From IMG/VR virus record IMGVR_UViG_3300026263_000019, positions 1 to 22,108 of that record: a DNA stretch of 22,108 nt; one strand, 5' to 3'. Both the position numbers and the translations under genes were made by a program. Under the pieces are notes generated by a model. That model was not told the origin of the DNA and did not search any database. It saw only the letters and a program-made list of their open reading frames with translations. The stretch comes from a virus. Of the stretch, positions 11,751 to 22,079 are shown in pieces (position 1 is the first letter of the stretch; each line of letters starts with the position of its first letter).

Positions 11751-13145
11751 ATGGCATCACCCTTAAAAGTAATAAATTCTGGATCGAATCTCCAAGTGAT
11801 GACCGATACAGAAATAGACACTATGATAGTTCCTCTTGTTCTACAAGAGTTCGCCAGTGATCAAACATATAATAAAAGAGGGAATTGTACTGCATACGCT
11901 AACAATTTCGGCAATGCTGGTGATTTTGATAACAGGTTCCGTAACGATGATGTAGGCGCTCATCCTATTTCCGACGGAAACTTTACTACCACTGAATGGT
12001 CTATTCAACAAGAACAAACCTTAACGGCAAATGTATCTAGCGTAGTCTACCCTACGAAATTTATTTCTTCGGGCTGTAAACTACAAACGATGACTACCGC
12101 CGAATTACAAACTACTATTTTAGCCAGAGTTGCTAACAATTGGAAAACTAATACTTATCCAGTTGGAGGGTATTATTTTGGGACTGCAGCGCCAGATGCA
12201 GATACATGGGTTTATTGTGGGGATTCACTAACAGAAACGTATAGAAAAGTAGGTGATGATAATGAAACCGTTTATAGATTATGGAGAAAAACTGCTCCTA
12301 CTACAACTTCAGGATCCAGGCCAATTTATAATAGATCAGAAGGTGATGGTGTCCAGGAAATGTCAGATGCAGATATTAAAACATTAGCCGCAGAATGGAG
12401 AAATTATCTTTTTAATGTAGAATCTATTGGCCACTATCAAATGGTAACAGGTGCTTCTGCTCCCGGAACCGGCACGTGGACACAAGTAGGTGCATATTAT
12501 GATTATCTAACAGATACCGGAGATATAATTTATTCTCAAGGATATGAAGGAATATATTCTCAAATGTATGAAGGAATATATTCAGGACAATATGAGGGAT
12601 TGTATTCAGGACAATTCCTTGGCAACTATTCGAGTGGTTTTACGGGGATTTATTCCGGACAGTTTTTAGGACTTTTTTCAAAAGGATATGAAGGATTTTA
12701 TTCTCAAGGATTTTCCGGGGGATATGGAGGAGGATATCAAGGCGGATATATAGGCGGTTACACTCAAGGATTTACAACAACATATGGGTCTGGAAGTGAA
12801 ACCCCTAATCCTCAAGCTACGTCTTCAGGTGGTACGTACAGCTCCACGTATTCTGGCATCTATTCTGGCATTTATTCAGGAACATTTTCTGGCCAGTATT
12901 CAAATCAATATGCTGGTTTTTATTCTAATCAATTTGAAGGTATATATAGTATGGGGTTTCAAGGAATCTATTCTCAAGGTTTTGAAGGTACTTATTCATC
13001 CGGTTTTGAAGGATATTATTCACAAATGTATGTAGGAATTTATTCAGGGCAATATTCTGGTTTTTACAGTAACCAATATACAGGAAGAACTGTTTTGGCT
13101 TCATTAGGTACTGATAGTTATACATTCTGGAAGAGGATTGCGTAA
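11751..13145 (+). CDS. YS-octapeptide repeat fibre-like protein 1
   Basis: A 464-residue protein with two parts. Residues 1 to about 255 contain three copies of a short module: LQVMTDTEID, LQTMTTAELQ and VQEMSDADIK, each followed by a helix. They also contain a YYFGTAAPDADTWVYCGD block and an APGTGTWTQVG block just before the repeats. Residues 260-445 are tandem units of 8 residues of the form (I/F/L)YS(Q/G/S)(G/Q/M)(F/Y)xG. A GGYxGGY-rich spacer and a TPNPQ linker interrupt them, and shorter 4-residue YSG units follow. The C-terminus is a short cap, TDSYTFWKRIA. The gene after it is a paralogue with the same order of parts. I do not recognise the family. A fibre or adhesin on the virion is likely from position, the low charge of the repeat and the repetitive build. 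Its stop overlaps the next start as TAATG. Confidence 0.75.
   Translation: MASPLKVINSGSNLQVMTDTEIDTMIVPLVLQEFASDQTYNKRGNCTAYANNFGNAGDFDNRFRNDDVGAHPISDGNFTTTEWSIQQEQTLTANVSSVVYPTKFISSGCKLQTMTTAELQTTILARVANNWKTNTYPVGGYYFGTAAPDADTWVYCGDSLTETYRKVGDDNETVYRLWRKTAPTTTSGSRPIYNRSEGDGVQEMSDADIKTLAAEWRNYLFNVESIGHYQMVTGASAPGTGTWTQVGAYYDYLTDTGDIIYSQGYEGIYSQMYEGIYSGQYEGLYSGQFLGNYSSGFTGIYSGQFLGLFSKGYEGFYSQGFSGGYGGGYQGGYIGGYTQGFTTTYGSGSETPNPQATSSGGTYSSTYSGIYSGIYSGTFSGQYSNQYAGFYSNQFEGIYSMGFQGIYSQGFEGTYSSGFEGYYSQMYVGIYSGQYSGFYSNQYTGRTVLASLGTDSYTFWKRIA
12528..13085 (+). repeat. Octapeptide (24-base) repeat region of paralogue 1
   Basis: This stretch encodes about 15 octapeptide units, such as IYSQGYEG, IYSQMYEG, IYSGQYEG, FYSNQFEG and IYSQGFEG. 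The array is split in the middle by a GGY-rich spacer and a TPNPQ linker (about 12719-12840). Aromatic residues fall at two positions of each unit and Gly at the last. Codons differ between units, so most copies are old and held by selection on the protein. Confidence 0.85.
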
Positions 13146-15028
13146 TGGCTACTGACGGAAGAGTAATGAGAATCTATCCACTGGGTAGTAACACAGAATT
13201 AGCCGCAACAGAAAGTGGAAAATTATATATAGGGTCGGTAACTGAAACCGGTTCCGGTGCTTCTGCTAATATTGGTAAAATTACAACTATTACATCTACA
13301 CCGGGAGCTGGAGTATATGATGATGTATTTGCTGCCGGCGATTATCTTATTATTAGACATCAACAATATGGAATGTTAGGTGTTGGTCAATGGATTAAAG
13401 TTCAATCTGTTTCAAGTACGGGAGCCAGTACAGAATTAACTTTAGAAGATGGTGCTGCAGAATTTTACAAATATTTAAATTCATCCGGAGCAAGTTATAC
13501 AGGCCAAACCAGCGTGGGTATTACATTTGAAAAAGTAATGGGTTGGGGTGTTAGACAAATGACTAACGACCAAATTGATGATTCAATAGTTCCAGAAGTT
13601 TTTAATAGATGGGGATCCTATACAAAAGGAACTGCAACACATGATGATTGGAAAAGTCATATAAGACCTTTAGCTGGTACTTCTAATACATCTGGTTATG
13701 ATTTATGTGGAACTGTTGGTGAAAGATATAGAAGCCCAGATGTTGTAGGTGATCATCCAGTAGCAAATAATGTAACTATAACTAATTATTCATTAGAACA
13801 ATGTGTTGGAACAAAACCCTTTAATGGCGCAGCGGATGCAACACATGTTGATGATTTAAATAGTGTTGTAGAATTTTTGGGTGCTAATACAGGTGGGTCT
13901 CACGGCGGTAAGGTATACGAAATATCAGACGCAGAAATGGCTGCCGGTGCTGTTATTGCTAGGTGTAATGCATATTTTACTTCAGCCGCAAATACTGTTG
14001 GTTCTTATCATATTGGAACTGCCGCGGGAGATTCAGATACTAGTTCTTGGCATGATGAAACATGGTATACAGATACAGTAATAACATCGTCAGGTTCAGC
14101 AAACGTTGCATATCATCTTTATAGAAAAGAATCTGGTATTGAACGAGGATGGTCAACTTCAAGATCTTTATCAAATGCTAATACAGAAGCAAGAGCCGCA
14201 AATTCTGTTACACATTGGACTGGTGCTAATGCTGACTATATTGCCGTAGGAAATTATCCACGTGCAGCAACAGATGAGGTAATATACTTACCAATTTATA
14301 ATCAAGGTAATAACCAAACTAAAGAATCAAATACTGTTCAAGCCTATGGGCATTCTGCAACTTTACAAGATACTGCAGGTGATGCCGGCATACATTTGCA
14401 TTGGATTAAACATTTATTGATTGCAAATGCCGGTGAATATAGTTTAGTAACAGGTAATACAGCTCCTGGAACCGGCACATGGCAATTTTGTGGTAATGTA
14501 TATGATAAAGTTACAACAGTTGCAGATGTAATATATTCTCAAGGATATGAAGGTATATATTCTACAGGATATGAAGGCATTTATTCACAAGGATTTGCCG
14601 GAATTTTTAGTAGCGGATTCACTGGAATTTATTCAACAGGCTTTGAAGGCATTTATTCACAAGGATTTACTGCTGGTTATGCTGGTGGTTATGCTGGTGG
14701 ATATGGCGGTGGATATACTCTAACTTATGGTTCTGGCGGCGAATCACCTAACCCTCAAGCCTCTTCAGAAGGTCCTACATATTCCGGAACTTATTCTGGA
14801 ACATATTCTGGAACATATTCTGGAACATATTCACAAGGATTTGCCGGAATTTATTCAGCAGGCTTTGAAGGCATTTATTCACAAGGCTTTGAAGGCATTT
14901 ATTCACAAGGATTTGGTGCAGTTTATAGTGGCCAATATACTGGCATCTATAGTAACCAATATACCGGAACAACGGTATTTGCCACTTTAGAAACAGATAC
15001 ATATTCGCTTTGGAAAAGAGTAGCATAA
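13145..15028 (+). CDS. YS-octapeptide repeat fibre-like protein 2
   Basis: A 627-residue paralogue of the preceding gene. The N-terminal ~460 residues are longer and diverged, but share landmarks with paralogue 1: VRQMTNDQIDDSIVPEVF (compare VMTDTEIDTMIVPLVL), HIGTAAGDSDT, and VTGNTAPGTGTWQFCG. The repeat region (residues 463-608) has units IYSQGYEG, IYSTGYEG, IYSQGFAG and IFSSGFTG. A GYAGGYAGGYGGGY spacer, an ESPNPQ linker and a run of four-residue TYSG units follow, then more octapeptides. The C-terminal cap TDTYSLWKRVA matches that of paralogue 1. The start lies in a TAATG overlap with the gene before. The pair is therefore a tandem gene duplication whose repeat frame, linker and cap were kept while the N-terminal parts diverged. 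A fibre or adhesin role is inferred. No enzymatic motif is visible. Confidence 0.75.
   Translation: MATDGRVMRIYPLGSNTELAATESGKLYIGSVTETGSGASANIGKITTITSTPGAGVYDDVFAAGDYLIIRHQQYGMLGVGQWIKVQSVSSTGASTELTLEDGAAEFYKYLNSSGASYTGQTSVGITFEKVMGWGVRQMTNDQIDDSIVPEVFNRWGSYTKGTATHDDWKSHIRPLAGTSNTSGYDLCGTVGERYRSPDVVGDHPVANNVTITNYSLEQCVGTKPFNGAADATHVDDLNSVVEFLGANTGGSHGGKVYEISDAEMAAGAVIARCNAYFTSAANTVGSYHIGTAAGDSDTSSWHDETWYTDTVITSSGSANVAYHLYRKESGIERGWSTSRSLSNANTEARAANSVTHWTGANADYIAVGNYPRAATDEVIYLPIYNQGNNQTKESNTVQAYGHSATLQDTAGDAGIHLHWIKHLLIANAGEYSLVTGNTAPGTGTWQFCGNVYDKVTTVADVIYSQGYEGIYSTGYEGIYSQGFAGIFSSGFTGIYSTGFEGIYSQGFTAGYAGGYAGGYGGGYTLTYGSGGESPNPQASSEGPTYSGTYSGTYSGTYSGTYSQGFAGIYSAGFEGIYSQGFEGIYSQGFGAVYSGQYTGIYSNQYTGTTVFATLETDTYSLWKRVA
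14531..14968 (+). repeat. Octapeptide repeat region of paralogue 2
   Basis: Two blocks of octapeptide units flank a GGY-rich spacer and an ESPNPQ linker. Several neighbouring 24-base units are almost identical at DNA level, for example the GGCATTTATTCACAAGG core repeated around 14869-14910. This is more recent-looking than in paralogue 1 and fits repeat gain and loss. Confidence 0.85.
14777..14832 (+). repeat. 12-base in-frame tandem repeat (TYSG units)
   Basis: Four consecutive 12-base copies (14777-14788, 14789-14800, 14801-14812, 14813-14824), followed by a partial copy. The third and fourth are identical (ACATATTCTGGA); the first and second differ by one base each. Each copy encodes Thr-Tyr-Ser-Gly in frame, so slippage would change the repeat length without breaking the frame. 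Confidence 0.9.
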
Positions 15029-15031
15029 ATA
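15024..15031 (+). promoter_or_regulatory. Candidate T4-like late promoter (CATAAATA)
   Basis: CATAAATA matches the NATAAATA form of the T4-type late promoter (T4 consensus TATAAATA) used by marine T4-like phages. It overlaps the TAA stop of YS-repeat paralogue 2 and lies 31 bases before the next start, in one of the few real intergenic gaps. The sequence ATAAATACAT is shared exactly with the site at 17866. It would drive the cassette 15062-17869. Confidence 0.55.
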
Positions 15032-15034
15032 CAT

Positions 15035-15050
15035 ATAATATTAATATTAT
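15035..15050. other. Perfect 16-base palindrome
   Basis: ATAATATTAATATTAT reads the same on both strands. It begins four bases after the candidate late promoter and ends just before the ribosome binding site AAAGGA (15052-15057) of the next gene. It could be an operator or a 5' hairpin of the late transcript, or simply AT-rich sequence. Confidence 0.4.
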
Positions 15051-15061
15051 GAAAGGAAAAA

Positions 15062-15679
15062 ATGGCCGAACAAGAAGTAGCTGAAACTAAAGAGTGGACT
15101 CATGATACAATGATTGAAGCATTATGGAGAACACCAGAAAAAAAAGAAATTTCTATCCTTTATGAACGAGAAGATAAATCTAGATATTCCGGACAAGCTT
15201 TAGAAGATTCTCAAGAATGGAAAGATTTTTTTTATAAATTTACCCCGGAGCAGGTTGATCAATTTTCCGAAACTGCTAGAATCCAGCGTGAGAGTCAAAA
15301 TAAGGGTAGAGCAGCGCGAAGCAATCAAGTTGAAGAAAAACAAAAAGTTGAAAGAAGAAAAGCGGCGGATGATTTAGAAACCTTATTTCGTGCTAAATTA
15401 GAAGCCTTTGAGATTCCGGAAGTTAGAGATAGTGAAAATAGAGAATTGAGGTCAAGAATTAGAAAATCTAAATCACTAACAGAAATTTCTGCCTTAGTTG
15501 CATCTCTTATAACACTTTCTATAATTAAAGTAACTTTAAGACCCGAAGGTCTTTTAGATGAAAGTGAGCCGGAGGAAACCGAAGATGCGGCAGTCCAACA
15601 CGACGGTGATGAAGCAATCATGATTGATGCATCAACTATTAATATTGTAGCTAATAAGGAAATTGGGGATGCGGAGTGA
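15062..15679 (+). CDS. Unknown charged protein, first gene of the modification cassette
   Basis: A 205-residue protein that I do not recognise. The N-terminus (EWTHDTMIEALWRTPEKKEISILYERED) resembles a small folded domain. Residues about 60-135 are very rich in charged residues and likely helical or coiled coil (EEKQKVERRKAADDLETLFRAKLEAF). Residues 139-158 form one hydrophobic stretch (LTEISALVASLITLSIIKVTL), which could be a membrane segment or a buried helix. The tail is acidic (ESEPEETEDAA). The start has AAAGGA four bases upstream and follows the candidate late promoter at 15024. Its end overlaps the glycosyltransferase gene by 11 bases, so it is probably made together with that enzyme. 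A structural protein or an enzyme partner are both possible. Confidence 0.7.
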   Translation: MAEQEVAETKEWTHDTMIEALWRTPEKKEISILYEREDKSRYSGQALEDSQEWKDFFYKFTPEQVDQFSETARIQRESQNKGRAARSNQVEEKQKVERRKAADDLETLFRAKLEAFEIPEVRDSENRELRSRIRKSKSLTEISALVASLITLSIIKVTLRPEGLLDESEPEETEDAAVQHDGDEAIMIDASTINIVANKEIGDAE

Positions 15680-16466
15680 CGAAGGATTTTTATTATGTGC
15701 GACTAATTTTAAACCATATCTTACCGCAGCCCAACAATTAGCAGACAGTTTAAAAGAATTTGCGCCAGACCATCCGGTAATTGTATATACCGAAGATAAA
15801 TGGGTTTCTGATCCGGGTAATCATATATTCGATGAAGTCCATGGAGGTATGCCACCTTCTAATAGAGCCAAATTACTAGCCTTACAACACAGCCCCTTTG
15901 ATCTTACATGTTATCTCGATTCAGATATGGTATGTGTTAATCCTAGAGCCCCAGAAGTTTTTAAAGGAATAAAACCCGGTTATGATATGGCGTGGACTAA
16001 AATTAGAACATATGCTGCCGCTGCCACGTGGTGGGATAAGTTACAACTAAAAGTCCCGCACGGTGGAATGTGTTTGTATAGAAAATCTGATAGAATGATT
16101 TCCTTTATGGAACAGTGGTGGGAGAATTGGTTATGGAAAAGACGAAATGATTGGGATCCACGCTGGGACGGCAAATATCCTTACTGGGAAACTAGAGGTT
16201 GGGATCAATTCCCATTACATTTAATGATGGGCGTTATTAGAAAAGATGATCCTTGGTATAGACCCGATATAAAATGGCATTGGATATACGGAGGAGATCC
16301 ACCTTGTACTCCCGAAACAGATGATTGGAATACCGGTGAAGATGCAAAATGGAATTGGATTATTGGATATGATCCAGAAAGAGAGGGTGTAAATAGAGAT
16401 GAGATTATATTTCACGATTATTCTTGCTTATTATTTAAAAGACAATATCAAAATGGTAGAAAATGA
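15669..16466 (+). CDS. GT-A-like glycosyltransferase
   Basis: A 265-residue protein with the look of a GT-A nucleotide-sugar glycosyltransferase. The N-terminus (FLLCATNFKPYLTAAQQLADSL, then PVIVYTEDKW) fits the first Rossmann-like strands. SNRAKLLAL (residues 64-72) is followed by CYLDSDMVCVNP with the metal-binding DSD at 84-86. A VPHGGMCLYRKS block lies at 129-140, and FHDYS at 248-252 could give the usual late histidine metal ligand. The rest is unusually rich in Trp. ATG 15669 is chosen over the in-frame TTG at 15663 because AAGGAA lies about 8 bases upstream of the ATG. The gene overlaps both neighbours (ATGA at its end). Sugar donor and acceptor are unknown. Next to fibre genes and two hydroxylase-like genes, a virion protein is a plausible acceptor, but host surface glycan or DNA bases cannot be excluded. 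Confidence 0.75.
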   Translation: MRSDEGFLLCATNFKPYLTAAQQLADSLKEFAPDHPVIVYTEDKWVSDPGNHIFDEVHGGMPPSNRAKLLALQHSPFDLTCYLDSDMVCVNPRAPEVFKGIKPGYDMAWTKIRTYAAAATWWDKLQLKVPHGGMCLYRKSDRMISFMEQWWENWLWKRRNDWDPRWDGKYPYWETRGWDQFPLHLMMGVIRKDDPWYRPDIKWHWIYGGDPPCTPETDDWNTGEDAKWNWIIGYDPEREGVNRDEIIFHDYSCLLFKRQYQNGRK

Positions 16467-17266
16467 AACATACAGAACATATTTCGAAATATTGTAATGA
16501 AGAAGAGATATTAGACACTCTTGAACGGTTAGGGAAATATCTATATGATTTGGATGAAGAATTAATACGATTAAAAGACCGAAGAGAAAACTCCCCCACT
16601 TGGAAAGAGGCTATTTGTGATGATTATTTAAATGAATATAGAAAATCTATTAGACCAGGACCACCTTGGCATCAAAAGATATGGGATTTAATTTTAGATT
16701 TAAGAACGAGAGAAAGACATAAAAAGATTGGTGAATTATGTGCTAATTTAGGAAAAAGAATAGGAGCAAGAAAACAGGCTCTCAGTGCAATATATCCGCC
16801 AGGTGGTTATGTTGGGTGGCATACTAATGCAGATGTTCCGGGTAGAAATTTATTATTTACTTGGTCAAAAACAGGTAATGGTGTGCTTAGATACAAACGA
16901 TCTACCCCAGAAGGTGAAATGATAAAATATGATATTCCGGATCACATTGGTTGGAATGTAAAGTCGTTTGATTGGTTTGGACATAAAGAAATATCTCGTA
17001 CTGGTTATACTTGGCACTGTGCTGGCACAGAAGATCTTCGGTGCACTATAGCATTTGTAATTCATAGTAATGTAATGTCTGATATGCTTTTAGAAGAAGA
17101 TTTTAATTTACATTCTTGGAGTGAAGGTTGTTTTATATCTGACGATAAAAGTGATGAATCTGAATGGTGGAAAGGGACGAAAGAAGAAATTGAAACAATG
17201 AAATTAAGTCCAGAAATTCTATCGAATGTTCATGCCGGGCCTGCTGGAACCAGAAATCCTAGATAA
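16463..17266 (+). CDS. 2OG-Fe(II) oxygenase-like protein with HxN instead of HxD
   Basis: A 267-residue protein. Residues 1-105 are helical and charged. A jelly-roll-like domain follows, with YPPGGYVGWHTNADVPG (H120, N122, D124), a central strand region, and GYTWHCAGTEDLRCTIAFVI (H185, R193). This spacing matches the HxD...H...R pattern of 2-oxoglutarate/Fe(II) dioxygenases and parallels the canonical next gene (YPAGGYYQWHSDD). Here, however, the acidic iron ligand position is Asn122, with Asp only at 124. It may still bind iron with altered geometry, or have another activity, or be a non-catalytic relative. The C-terminal ~60 residues are acidic with no clear domain. It overlaps the glycosyltransferase gene by four bases (ATGA), and the next gene starts directly after its stop. 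Confidence 0.65.
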   Translation: MKHTEHISKYCNEEEILDTLERLGKYLYDLDEELIRLKDRRENSPTWKEAICDDYLNEYRKSIRPGPPWHQKIWDLILDLRTRERHKKIGELCANLGKRIGARKQALSAIYPPGGYVGWHTNADVPGRNLLFTWSKTGNGVLRYKRSTPEGEMIKYDIPDHIGWNVKSFDWFGHKEISRTGYTWHCAGTEDLRCTIAFVIHSNVMSDMLLEEDFNLHSWSEGCFISDDKSDESEWWKGTKEEIETMKLSPEILSNVHAGPAGTRNPR

Positions 17267-17869
17267 ATGACCGAAGCAAAAAAAACTAATTATCCAATTA
17301 CTAAGCCACCAACATATGTTAGAATTCCTTCTAGATGGTTTAGAGAAAACGCAGGAATTATTATCGAGGAATTTGATAATAAATCAACCACTGCTTTAAC
17401 ATATAATAATGATTCAAAGGCTAGATCCTCCGAAGTTTTTTTATGGGATATTTGGAAACTAGATTTATCAGATTTACAAAAAACAATAATCTATAAATTT
17501 AAAGAAATTTTTATAGAAGAAAATAAAAAATATCGATTTGATTTAGACTACTCCACTATCAATGTTCAATATACAAGATATCCAGCAGGAGGTTATTATC
17601 AATGGCATTCTGACGATGATTTCGGTGTTGTTCATAAAAGACATCAAAATGTAAGAAAAATATCTATAACTTCTCCATTGAATACAGGTAAATTTGAAGG
17701 AGGAGACTTACAATTACAATTAAATTATCAAAAAGAACTGCGAACAATGCAGTTTGAACCCGGTGATGCGGTAGTATTTCCCAGTTTTATTCAACATCAA
17801 GTTACTCCAGTTACTAAAGGTATACGCTATTCTTTAATCGCTTGGGTGTCAGGACCCGCATGGAGATAA
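17267..17869 (+). CDS. 2OG-Fe(II) oxygenase, PKHD/prolyl-4-hydroxylase-like
   Basis: A 200-residue protein with a complete 2-oxoglutarate/Fe(II) dioxygenase motif set: WHSDDD gives H114 and D116, FEGGDL lies at 143-148, QHQV gives the distal H177, and GIRYSLIAWV gives R187 for 2-oxoglutarate. Domain order and length fit the small PKHD-type/prolyl-hydroxylase-like family, which hydroxylates protein side chains or small molecules using O2 and 2-oxoglutarate. Such genes are frequent in marine T4-like phages, with unknown substrates. It begins right after the stop of the variant oxygenase gene (TAAATG) and ends in a TAA embedded in the next candidate late promoter. Position beside a glycosyltransferase and repeat-rich fibre genes suggests modification of a virion protein. 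Substrate not visible from sequence. Confidence 0.88.
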   Translation: MTEAKKTNYPITKPPTYVRIPSRWFRENAGIIIEEFDNKSTTALTYNNDSKARSSEVFLWDIWKLDLSDLQKTIIYKFKEIFIEENKKYRFDLDYSTINVQYTRYPAGGYYQWHSDDDFGVVHKRHQNVRKISITSPLNTGKFEGGDLQLQLNYQKELRTMQFEPGDAVVFPSFIQHQVTPVTKGIRYSLIAWVSGPAWR

Positions 17870-17872
17870 ATA
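17865..17872 (+). promoter_or_regulatory. Candidate T4-like late promoter (GATAAATA)
   Basis: GATAAATA fits the NATAAATA late-promoter form. It overlaps the TAA stop of the oxygenase gene and lies 37 bases before the gp13 start, in the largest gap of the middle of the window. The ten bases ATAAATACAT are identical to those at the 15024 site. It would drive the neck and terminase genes, which are late functions in T4. Confidence 0.6.
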
Positions 17873-17909
17873 CATTAGATAATAATAATCAATTTGTAGG
17901 AATCTTATC

Positions 17910-18653
17910 ATGGCAAAACCTCAAACTCGGATACAACTTAAAGAATATTGCCTTAGACAATTAGGCTCCCCAGTCATAGAAATCAATGTAGATGATGATC
18001 AATTGGAAGATAGAATTGACGAAGCTATTCAAGTCTACAATGATTATCATTATGATGGTTCTGAAAAGTTATATTTAAAGCACATAATTACACAGGATGA
18101 TATCGACAATGAATATCTTACTGTGGGTGATGAAACGATTAGTGTCATCAAAGCATTTCCCATAGATTCATCAACTGGGAATATCAATATGTTTGATGTA
18201 AGATATCAATTAAGATTGAATGATATATTTGATTTAAGTAAGCAGAAGTTGGGCGGATATACCTTAGCAATGCAACATTTAGATTTAATAGAAAACCTTT
18301 TTAATCAATCTCCTTCATTTAGATTTAATAGACACACAGATAAATTGTATCTGGATATCGATTGGGATAAAGAATTAACCGTCGGTAAATATTTGTTATT
18401 TGAAACTTACAGGAGACTTGATCCCGAAATATATACCGACGCTTACAATGATTTGTGGTTAAAAAAATATATAACATCTTTATTTAAAAGACAATGGGGA
18501 TCCAATTTATTAAAATTTGAAGGTATACAATTACCTGGTGGAACTACTTTAAATGGTAGACAAATCTTTGATGATGCGGTAACGGAATTGCAAATGTTAG
18601 ATGATGAAATCTTTACGAAGTTTCAGTTGCCTGATGATTTTATGACAGGATAA
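17910..18653 (+). CDS. gp13: Neck protein, T4 gp13 homologue
   Basis: A 247-residue homologue of T4 gp13, which with gp14 forms the neck joining the filled head to the tail. Recognisable blocks are RIQLKEYCLRQLGSPVIEIN with DDDQLEDRIDEAIQVYNDYHYDGSEK at the N-terminus, and the central DAYNDLWLKKYITSLFKRQW followed by GSNLLKFEGIQLPGG. These are the most conserved parts of gp13 in marine T4-like phages. It is shorter than T4 gp13 (309 residues). It is the first gene after the candidate late promoter at 17865. Gene order 13-(small gene)-14-15-16 agrees with T4 and supports the call. Confidence 0.9.
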   Translation: MAKPQTRIQLKEYCLRQLGSPVIEINVDDDQLEDRIDEAIQVYNDYHYDGSEKLYLKHIITQDDIDNEYLTVGDETISVIKAFPIDSSTGNINMFDVRYQLRLNDIFDLSKQKLGGYTLAMQHLDLIENLFNQSPSFRFNRHTDKLYLDIDWDKELTVGKYLLFETYRRLDPEIYTDAYNDLWLKKYITSLFKRQWGSNLLKFEGIQLPGGTTLNGRQIFDDAVTELQMLDDEIFTKFQLPDDFMTG

Positions 18654-21285: not shown

Positions 21286-21630
21286 TTGGAACAATTATTC
21301 ACAATCGATGAATTCATTATGATAGGACTAGTCCTATTTTCATCATTTTGGATTTTTCTATTTAATTACAGGCAAGACAATAAGGATAAGTATGCCGGAC
21401 ATTGGGGATTGATAGTTTTAGACCTATTCATTAATATGGGTATGTCGGCAACTGGATATCTGCTAATATCTATTGTATTCCAAAACGTTCCACAAATAGC
21501 AGCGTATGAAAGTTATAGATATCCCATAGGATATTTGTTTGGGCTTACTTCTAATGTAAGTATACCGATTGTTCTCAAGTGGTTTCAGCAACAAATCACT
21601 AAGAAATTAAACGACGCAGGAAAGAAGTGA
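21286..21630 (+). CDS. Three-helix membrane protein, holin-like
   Basis: A 114-residue protein with three hydrophobic segments: residues about 9-27 (DEFIMIGLVLFSSFWIFLF), 41-65 (GLIVLDLFINMGMSATGYLLISIVF) and 79-98 (YPIGYLFGLTSNVSIPIVLKWF). A polar hinge separates the first two, and the C-terminus is basic (QQQITKKLNDAGKK). Size, number of helices and the tail fit a class I-type or LydA-like holin, which makes the inner-membrane hole for lysis, but no family signature is certain. TTG start at 21286, supported by GAAAGG five bases upstream; the first in-frame ATG would lie inside helix 1. It may overlap the following cytochrome-like gene (if that starts at GTG 21627) and is otherwise 8 bases from it. 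An alternative is a membrane partner of the haem protein. Confidence 0.6.
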   Translation: MEQLFTIDEFIMIGLVLFSSFWIFLFNYRQDNKDKYAGHWGLIVLDLFINMGMSATGYLLISIVFQNVPQIAAYESYRYPIGYLFGLTSNVSIPIVLKWFQQQITKKLNDAGKK

Positions 21631-21638
21631 GGAAGATA

Positions 21639-22079
21639 ATGGCAGATCAAAACAAAAAATATGAAGCGGGTGAACAAGAATTAAAAGTGATGGAACCTGT
21701 AAAAGAAATAGAAATTGAGACTAAGGATATAGTAGCCACAAGCAAATTATGGATTTACATAATTATTGGATTATTGGTATATATGATGTTTTTTATTATC
21801 CCAGAGATTGATGAAAAAGTCACATGGATGGAAAAAGACTTAAACTCTGTATTGGTACAATCTGAAAGATTTAAGAAGTCAACAAGAGTGTTTGCGAAGG
21901 ATCATCAATGTGCTTCATGCCACTTGAGTCCTGATTATCTTCTTCATAATTTACTTATGAAGTATCCTAGTTTTTCTGACATAAAAGCATTTATGGCGGT
22001 CGGACATCAGAGATATTTCACAATGACCTCACCGATACCAGATGAACAATTATTAGATGTATATCGAGCGTTACAATGA
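21639..22079 (+). CDS. Membrane-anchored cytochrome c-like protein (CxxCH)
   Basis: A 146-residue protein. Residues 1-36 are charged and probably cytoplasmic; residues 37-55 are one membrane helix (LWIYIIIGLLVYMMFFIIP); the rest would be periplasmic. FAKDHQCASCHLSPDYLL contains C91, C94 and H95, the CxxCH haem c attachment motif. About 34 residues later FTMTSPIPDEQLLDVYRALQ offers M129 as a possible axial ligand, followed by the (S/P)DEQ..DV...L C-terminal helix typical of class I cytochromes c. The domain is compact: the His-Met distance is shorter than in cytochrome c551. ATG 21639 is preferred, with GAGG six bases upstream; GTG 21627 is also possible. A haem-binding electron carrier at the outer face of the inner membrane is the best reading. 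A zinc or disulfide motif in a spanin-like protein is the main alternative. Confidence 0.72.
   Translation: MADQNKKYEAGEQELKVMEPVKEIEIETKDIVATSKLWIYIIIGLLVYMMFFIIPEIDEKVTWMEKDLNSVLVQSERFKKSTRVFAKDHQCASCHLSPDYLLHNLLMKYPSFSDIKAFMAVGHQRYFTMTSPIPDEQLLDVYRALQ

Follow-up and report, generated by a model that had tools for sequence, protein, structure and literature searches.

The repeat fibre genes and the adjoining X3, GT and OX5 genes of the DNA analysed here appear to form a self-contained module of marine T4-like phages for fibre biogenesis and modification, in which late-expressed X3, GT and OX5 would decorate a fibre made of four-residue repeats (tetrads). The probability of this reading is put at about 0.7. 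The core of the module is a fibre, the X3 protein, a glycosyltransferase (GT) and an oxygenase-like protein with an HxN motif (OX5). A second fibre and a second oxygenase (OX6) are specific to the clade of the sequence studied. The window, i.e. the whole stretch of DNA analysed (22,108 nt), is part of the 26.9 kb contig C77 from a 1.89 Mb genome bin; C77 is also present in IMG/VR.

Gene layout, tetrad fibres and late-promoter-like sequences

The window carries T4-like phage virion genes, which include a large phrog_358 protein, fibre-type genes and a head-tail adaptor Ad2 gene, and Gp23 is present in seven long relatives. R1 and R2 are situated among the baseplate/fibre genes, the tail-fibre position of a T4-like phage. 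The genes R1, R2, X3, GT, OX5 and OX6 were all found where a first-pass annotation of this DNA had placed them. The features are as follows.

11751–13145, + strand: R1, repeat fibre protein 1, 464 aa, with N-terminal 'LQxMTDxEI' modules, aromatic tetrads and a C-terminal '...DSYTFWKRIA'
12525–13100, + strand: aromatic tetrad region of R1, Tyr or Phe every 4 residues, with YSQGFEGI-type octads
13145–15028, + strand: R2, repeat fibre protein 2, 627 aa; the start overlaps the R1 stop and relatives display the same order
14534–14989, + strand: aromatic tetrad region of R2, from the repeat pattern
15024–15032, + strand: late-promoter-like CATAAATAC between fibre and X3, with TATAAATA at the equivalent place in several distant lineages
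15062–15679, + strand: X3, conserved protein (140–300 aa) of no known family, found fused to GT in L184 and L186
15669–16466, + strand: GT (P0004), predicted glycogenin-like, GT8-fold glycosyltransferase, with invariant K70, D86xD88 and D181
16463–17266, + strand: OX5 (P0005), protein of predicted 2OG-oxygenase fold, with invariant H120-x-N122 ... H185 ... R193
17267–17869, + strand: OX6 (P0006), canonical 2OG-Fe(II) oxygenase (PF13640) that is closest, among solved structures, to PiuC/PKHD-type hydroxylases; confined to the window's clade
17865–17873, + strand: late-promoter-like GATAAATAC past OX6 and before the next virion gene, from an upstream motif scan
17910–18653, + strand: head-tail adaptor Ad2-like gene (phrog_211, by family match), the boundary, outside the module

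GT, OX5 and OX6 each have a start that overlaps or abuts the preceding stop, and the arrangement X3-GT-OX5-OX6 thus fits a single translationally coupled operon. GT residues are numbered from the TTG of the open reading frame 15663–16466, but the start is likely the ATG at 15669, where relatives start. Elsewhere in the virion-gene region (21627–22079, + strand) there is a 150 aa protein with a predicted membrane span and a CxxCH haem-type motif, CASCHLSPDYLLHN; its match to cytochrome c in Pfam is weak (0.12).

R1 and R2 display Tyr or Phe at each fourth residue, with longest unbroken runs of 22 (R1) and 17 (R2). In 2000 composition-preserving shuffles the maximum runs were 8 and 7, respectively. 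The repeat, described earlier as an octapeptide, is therefore far above chance, but its true period is four residues. Two tetrads alternate in R1 and R2 (YSQG-FEGI), which explains the octapeptides. Most relatives have a [YF]-[T/S/A]-G-x unit, in which Tyr fills 42–100% of the aromatic positions and Gly is mostly third. The repeat regions of R1 and R2 contain 1–2% Pro and 0–0.5% Lys. A collagen-type repeat is ruled out, as a period of 4 is not Gly-X-Y and the sequence is almost without Pro or Lys acceptors. The analogy originally drawn with the hydroxylation and glycosylation of collagen-type repeats thus fails, and collagen chemistry is not transferable to these [YF]-[S/T/A]-G-x tetrads.

Sequence is conserved in two places of the fibre family, the N-terminal part, which has 'LQEMTDxEI' motifs, and the end, which reads '...LWLRTA / LWKRVA / LYVRVA'. 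An N-terminal profile made from distant fibres matches the N-terminal 256 residues of R1 (1.6e-40) and the fibre of phage C48C1, a giant of 3347 residues (2.4e-31). The searches run with the fibre N-terminus gave no convincing known family. At non-fibre positions of the module loci, just 1 of 347 open reading frames of at least 250 aa has a tetrad count of at least 10. A first search for the tetrads in phages gave a weak match to an unannotated stretch of Enterococcus phage Riverwalk.

ATAAATA is the core of the T4 late promoter. In the window it lies 37 bases ahead of X3 and 44 ahead of the gene that follows OX6, and it precedes no other gene. The word alone is unremarkable, as ATAAATAC is observed 3 times in the whole window versus 2.3 expected and is not rarer than chance. 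However, both ATAAATA positions are kept within the window's clade, and in L125, L133, L139 and L142, which share about 30% GT identity with the window, TATAAATA again precedes X3. The flanking candidate late promoters noted at first sight are thus present as late-promoter-like sequences, although the count of the word adds nothing. Together the kept positions and the recurrence before X3 make late expression of the module enzymes likely.

Conservation of the module across phages

Approximately 240 viral-contig loci, near-duplicates included, were fetched by two GT profiles and one fibre profile, at identities down to about 28%. X3, GT and the oxygenase adjoin in this order in every contig long enough to show them, and upstream is a fibre whose aromatic residues recur at four-residue intervals. 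Members of the window's clade keep the order R1-R2-X3-GT-OX5-OX6-Ad2. In distant phages found with the GT profile (about 28–45% identity) the order is fibre-X3-GT-OX5, and OX6 is absent. OX6, earlier taken as a core part of the system, is therefore restricted to the window's own clade and was rejected as part of the module core.

Among the matches listed for the GT query, OX5 is found at most 2 genes downstream in 81 of 81 loci, and X3 is upstream in all of these except contig-end truncations. The best 80 loci of a divergent GT alignment, most of which resemble C48C1 in having giant fibres, have X3 and OX5 neighbours throughout save for contig-edge or overprinted cases. The search with the fibre N-terminus approaches the module from the other side. 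Among its best 80 loci, X3-GT-OX5 follows in all 74 that have enough downstream room; 65 of these are exactly adjacent, and 9 show one extra gene, an X3-GT fusion or a spurious open reading frame. These locus counts rest on the best 80 hits per scan, include near-duplicates, sample the most distant relatives incompletely and do not represent independent events; a fairer number is given by GT clusters at 75% identity, of which 14 of 15 have the full module. In the fifteenth (L137) the fibre is of the tetrad-fibre family, although its repeats are short.

Apparent exceptions to the fibre linkage, where enough upstream sequence is present, have the tetrad fibre a few genes further up. In the seemingly fibreless L300, L303, L305 and L306 the fibre is further upstream or masked by an antisense open reading frame. 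L301 and L307 are short contigs with no fibre assigned, and L302, a close relative of L301, has a fibre. Two phages that entered the set solely through a distant OX5 relative next to ThyX have the module as well, at another genomic position. In 50,697 annotated phage records, a single record, C48C1, matches the fibre (R1), GT and OX5 queries, and no GT match came from related marine T4-like phages that lack the tetrad fibre. The proposed check on co-occurrence of the repeats with the enzymes thus supports a fibre-linked system, and among the matches listed the X3-GT-OX5 core was not found beside unrelated genes in phages without the repeats.

A shared neighbourhood of this kind indicates a functional link rather than the identity of the substrate. 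Since T4-like phages conserve virion-gene order, ordinary synteny in a slowly rearranging block of virion genes might also keep the genes together with no link in function. However, the genes around the module vary between lineages while the module stays, inserted genes (an AMP-ligase-like gene and one of 377 aa) come and go inside it, and the relatives that lack the tetrad fibre lack a GT match as well. Synteny of that sort is thus given hardly any probability.

The inserted genes are of some note in themselves. A gene of about 430–440 aa is situated between the fibre and X3 in L117 (8162–9484), L190, L208 and L209; the L117 gene, the one that was scanned, has weak similarity to AMP-binding (acyl/aryl-ligase-like) proteins. 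One lineage (L125:10711–11844, also L126, L128 and L151–L153) has a 377 aa protein of no known family between GT and OX5. Adjacent to the module in L103 (11323–12612, − strand) there is a DUF1552 (HXXSHH) gene with an E-value of 3.6e-75, and to our knowledge a gene for this protein is otherwise unexpected in a phage. The sole module contig found in the GTDB genome collection is L227, in the bin Rhodobacteraceae bacterium Water_Bin34, and this bin membership is a weak hint of Rhodobacteraceae as hosts.

The enzymes could also act on some other target, e.g. host surface glycans (superinfection exclusion), another tail protein or a phage polysaccharide, and be merely housed in the fibre region. 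This region of phage genomes collects host-interaction genes, in some loci further fibre genes separate the tetrad fibre from X3, and many GT8 enzymes, including LgtC (one of the GT fold matches described below), build bacterial surface glycans. However, the linkage is to one fibre family, in the same order, down to about 28% identity, with a late-type promoter and by three different queries, and the sole GT match in the 50,697 phage records also matches the fibre. Such a different target is considered distinctly unlikely.

Predicted folds and catalytic residues

X3 shows no known family. Searches of 23 members against Pfam and PHROGs gave scattered weak matches only, and a profile search of PDB gave none. 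In L184 and L186 (7263–8948), two contigs that are perhaps one virus, X3 and GT are fused in-frame as a 561 aa protein, which suggests that X3 works with GT. By eye, a likeness to tail-fibre chaperones is suspected. X3 is probably an adaptor or chaperone that joins the fibre and the transferase. It had been listed as an unknown charged protein; the absence of a family is borne out, but the description undersold a conserved core member that is found fused to GT.

GT carries invariant residues K70, D86, D88 and D181 in a broad alignment, and these include a DxD metal site. P0004 itself has no Pfam match, the GT8 model above cut-off included. Its relatives give weak matches to GT2, GT77 and GT8, the last in 2 of 23 with a best value of 0.022. 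Because searches of PDB by sequence gave nothing for either GT or OX5, structures were predicted for both. The AlphaFold model of GT (pLDDT 84) is closest to glycogenin (Foldseek 2e-8; VIA Z = 17.9 over 198 residues, 3t7n), followed by Skp1 GalT (Z = 15.2), GlyE (15.0) and LgtC (14.9), although these fold matches are at 10–16% identity and glycogenin is over-represented in PDB. By its model GT is a glycogenin-like transferase of the GT8 fold, and the DxD glycosyltransferase originally predicted holds both in the residues kept in P0004 and its relatives and in the modelled fold. Glycogenin is the classical tyrosine glucosyltransferase. A tyrosine-rich partner fits a glycogenin-like GT, although the predicted fold alone leaves the acceptor unfixed. 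All seven long relatives carry an epimerase-family gene and three carry a UDP-glucose dehydrogenase-like gene; at a guess, these sugar-nucleotide genes could supply the GT donor.

OX5 displays the motif HxN...H...R in place of the canonical HxD/E. HxN is found in 30 of 30 relatives and in 8 of 8 of a further set, and the distal His (H185) and the 2OG-binding Arg (R193) are invariant in both alignments. P0005 has no Pfam oxygenase match, and just one of the 30 members gives one, at 0.06. The OX5 model (pLDDT 88) matches AlkB, prolyl hydroxylases and PiuC/PKHD with VIA Z up to 7.9. The best 50 VIA matches are all 2OG/Fe oxygenases or close kin, many protein hydroxylases are among the matches, and the model shows the double-stranded beta-helix. 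An HxN oxygenase-like protein, as first described, is thus supported by the kept motif and the predicted fold.

The chemistry of OX5 is uncertain, as every member examined carries Asn in place of the iron-binding Asp. The constancy of HxN in the 30 and 8 relatives could mean that OX5 is a pseudo-enzyme or a fibre-binding fold, with GT alone catalytic. However, both His and the Arg are invariant, as expected for a working iron/2OG site. In human AspH two His suffice for activity, with no acidic iron ligand, and activity has likewise been reported for oxygenase variants in which one protein ligand serves alone (PMC10947486). Given the AspH example, an OX5 that lacks the acidic ligand may still be active, and a purely structural OX5 is judged unlikely.

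Other members of the OX5 family are found outside the module. C48C1 and two relatives have three OX5 genes each, i.e. one in the module, one beside DnaB/ThyX and one directly after a tail-tube gene. HxN proteins just 3′ of a T4-like tail-tube gene are found at L232:4268–4921 (C48C1 CDS0017) and L231:2646–3293, and perhaps a second virion protein is oxidised there. Those that adjoin ThyX and a DnaB-like helicase occur in many T4-like phages (L036–L072, e.g. L037:5787–6521) and form a separate clade with support 99/95. Neither the ThyX-linked nor the tail-tube-linked relatives have a GT neighbour.

Base hydroxylation and glucosylation are known in T-even phages, and the neighbourhood of ThyX and helicase as well as AlkB among the Foldseek matches would suit an OX5, perhaps with GT, that acts on nucleotides or DNA bases. 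The separate clade of the ThyX-linked proteins, their lack of a GT neighbour, the separate OX5 copies that C48C1 and its relatives keep for the two places and the closeness of GT to a protein-modifying transferase all argue against this, and action on nucleotides or DNA bases is rated very unlikely.

OX6 is a canonical 2OG-Fe(II) oxygenase, as had been proposed. It matches PF13640 with an E-value of 6.6e-15 (56.3 bits versus a cut-off of 27), H114, D116, H177 and R187 are invariant (HxD...H...R), and its sequence matches are PiuC/PKHD-type hydroxylases. However, distant fibre-X3-GT-OX5 loci do without it.

Proposed fibre modification and comparison with known systems

The proposed mechanism is as follows. 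One or two fibres, or one giant fibre in other lineages, bear long [Tyr/Phe]-[Ser/Thr/Ala]-Gly-x stretches. Late in infection X3 would bind the fibre and GT, and GT would attach a UDP-activated hexose to hydroxyls of the repeat, either on Tyr, by analogy with glycogenin, or on neighbouring Ser/Thr. OX5 would oxidise the same fibre before or after sugar addition, and a hydroxyl made by OX5 could serve as the sugar acceptor, as in mimivirus collagen (PMC9546862). In the window's clade OX6 would be an added second, canonical oxygenase that also oxidises the fibre. The decoration may have a role in stability, masking, protection or host recognition. Thus the fibre modification system of the first-pass annotation is retained as a late, fibre-linked cassette with glycosyltransferase and oxygenase folds, and its collagen chemistry and the core role of OX6 are dropped.

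A more specific version is tentative and on balance doubtful. In it, a glycogenin-like GT would add sugar to fibre tyrosines, and 2OG oxygenases of a new HxN branch would hydroxylate the fibre and also, in relatives, a second virion protein, the tail tube. If the fibre modification proposed above is real, a bacterial virus would both hydroxylate and glycosylate a fibre protein. This would affect host recognition, the stability of virions and how virions are themselves recognised, and HxN would be an iron site beyond those recorded for the oxygenase families covered here. Of the genes without explanation in marine T4-like phages, those for 2OG oxygenases are some of the commonest. In cyanophages such oxygenases have been proposed to act in host nitrogen/2OG metabolism (PMC3037559). 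For one oxygenase family the module offers a concrete candidate substrate, the adjoining fibre.

Phage virion glycosylation is known, as is viral hydroxylation plus glycosylation of a repeat protein, each separately. The family libraries and open literature searched gave no instance of the combination seen here, of the repeat type or of the HxN branch, and that literature contained no paper found to deal with the module, which is not proof of absence.

Glycogenin (GT8) is the closest solved fold to GT, and both carry a DxD with a Lys 16 residues before it (K86/D102 in glycogenin). However, glycogenin modifies itself and extends a glucan, whereas the presumed acceptor of GT is a separate Tyr-rich fibre, and the identity is 10–16%. 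GlyE and other GT8 enzymes of Streptococcus pneumoniae, which are GT8-fold transferases like GT, glycosylate a repeat adhesin, i.e. a surface protein. GlyE has no oxygenase partner and acts on already glycosylated serine-rich repeats of this cell-wall adhesin. OX5 has its best fold matches, and OX6 its sequence matches, among the protein hydroxylases PKHD/PiuC, P4H and PHD2, but all of these are HxD enzymes with unrelated substrates while OX5 is HxN.

AspH is a working 2OG oxygenase that, like the predicted oxygenase OX5, is without the acidic iron ligand (PMC10947486). The likeness is by motif only, as in AspH the acidic ligand is simply absent and in OX5 an Asn takes its place in an otherwise normal HxN...H...R. 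In mycobacteriophages, phage-encoded transferases are proposed to glycosylate capsid proteins; these are other phages with other hosts, and no oxygenase and no tetrad fibre is described for them (PMC11256854). The collagen modification of mimivirus (L230 lysyl hydroxylase/glucosyltransferase and R699; PMC9546862) belongs to a giant virus of amoebae and uses Gly-X-Y repeats with Lys as acceptor, whereas the present module shows Tyr/Phe tetrads with almost no Lys, sequence-unrelated enzymes and a modification that is put forward from the gene content. However, the two are alike in that each combines a virus-made repeat protein with a 2OG oxygenase and a glycosyltransferase.
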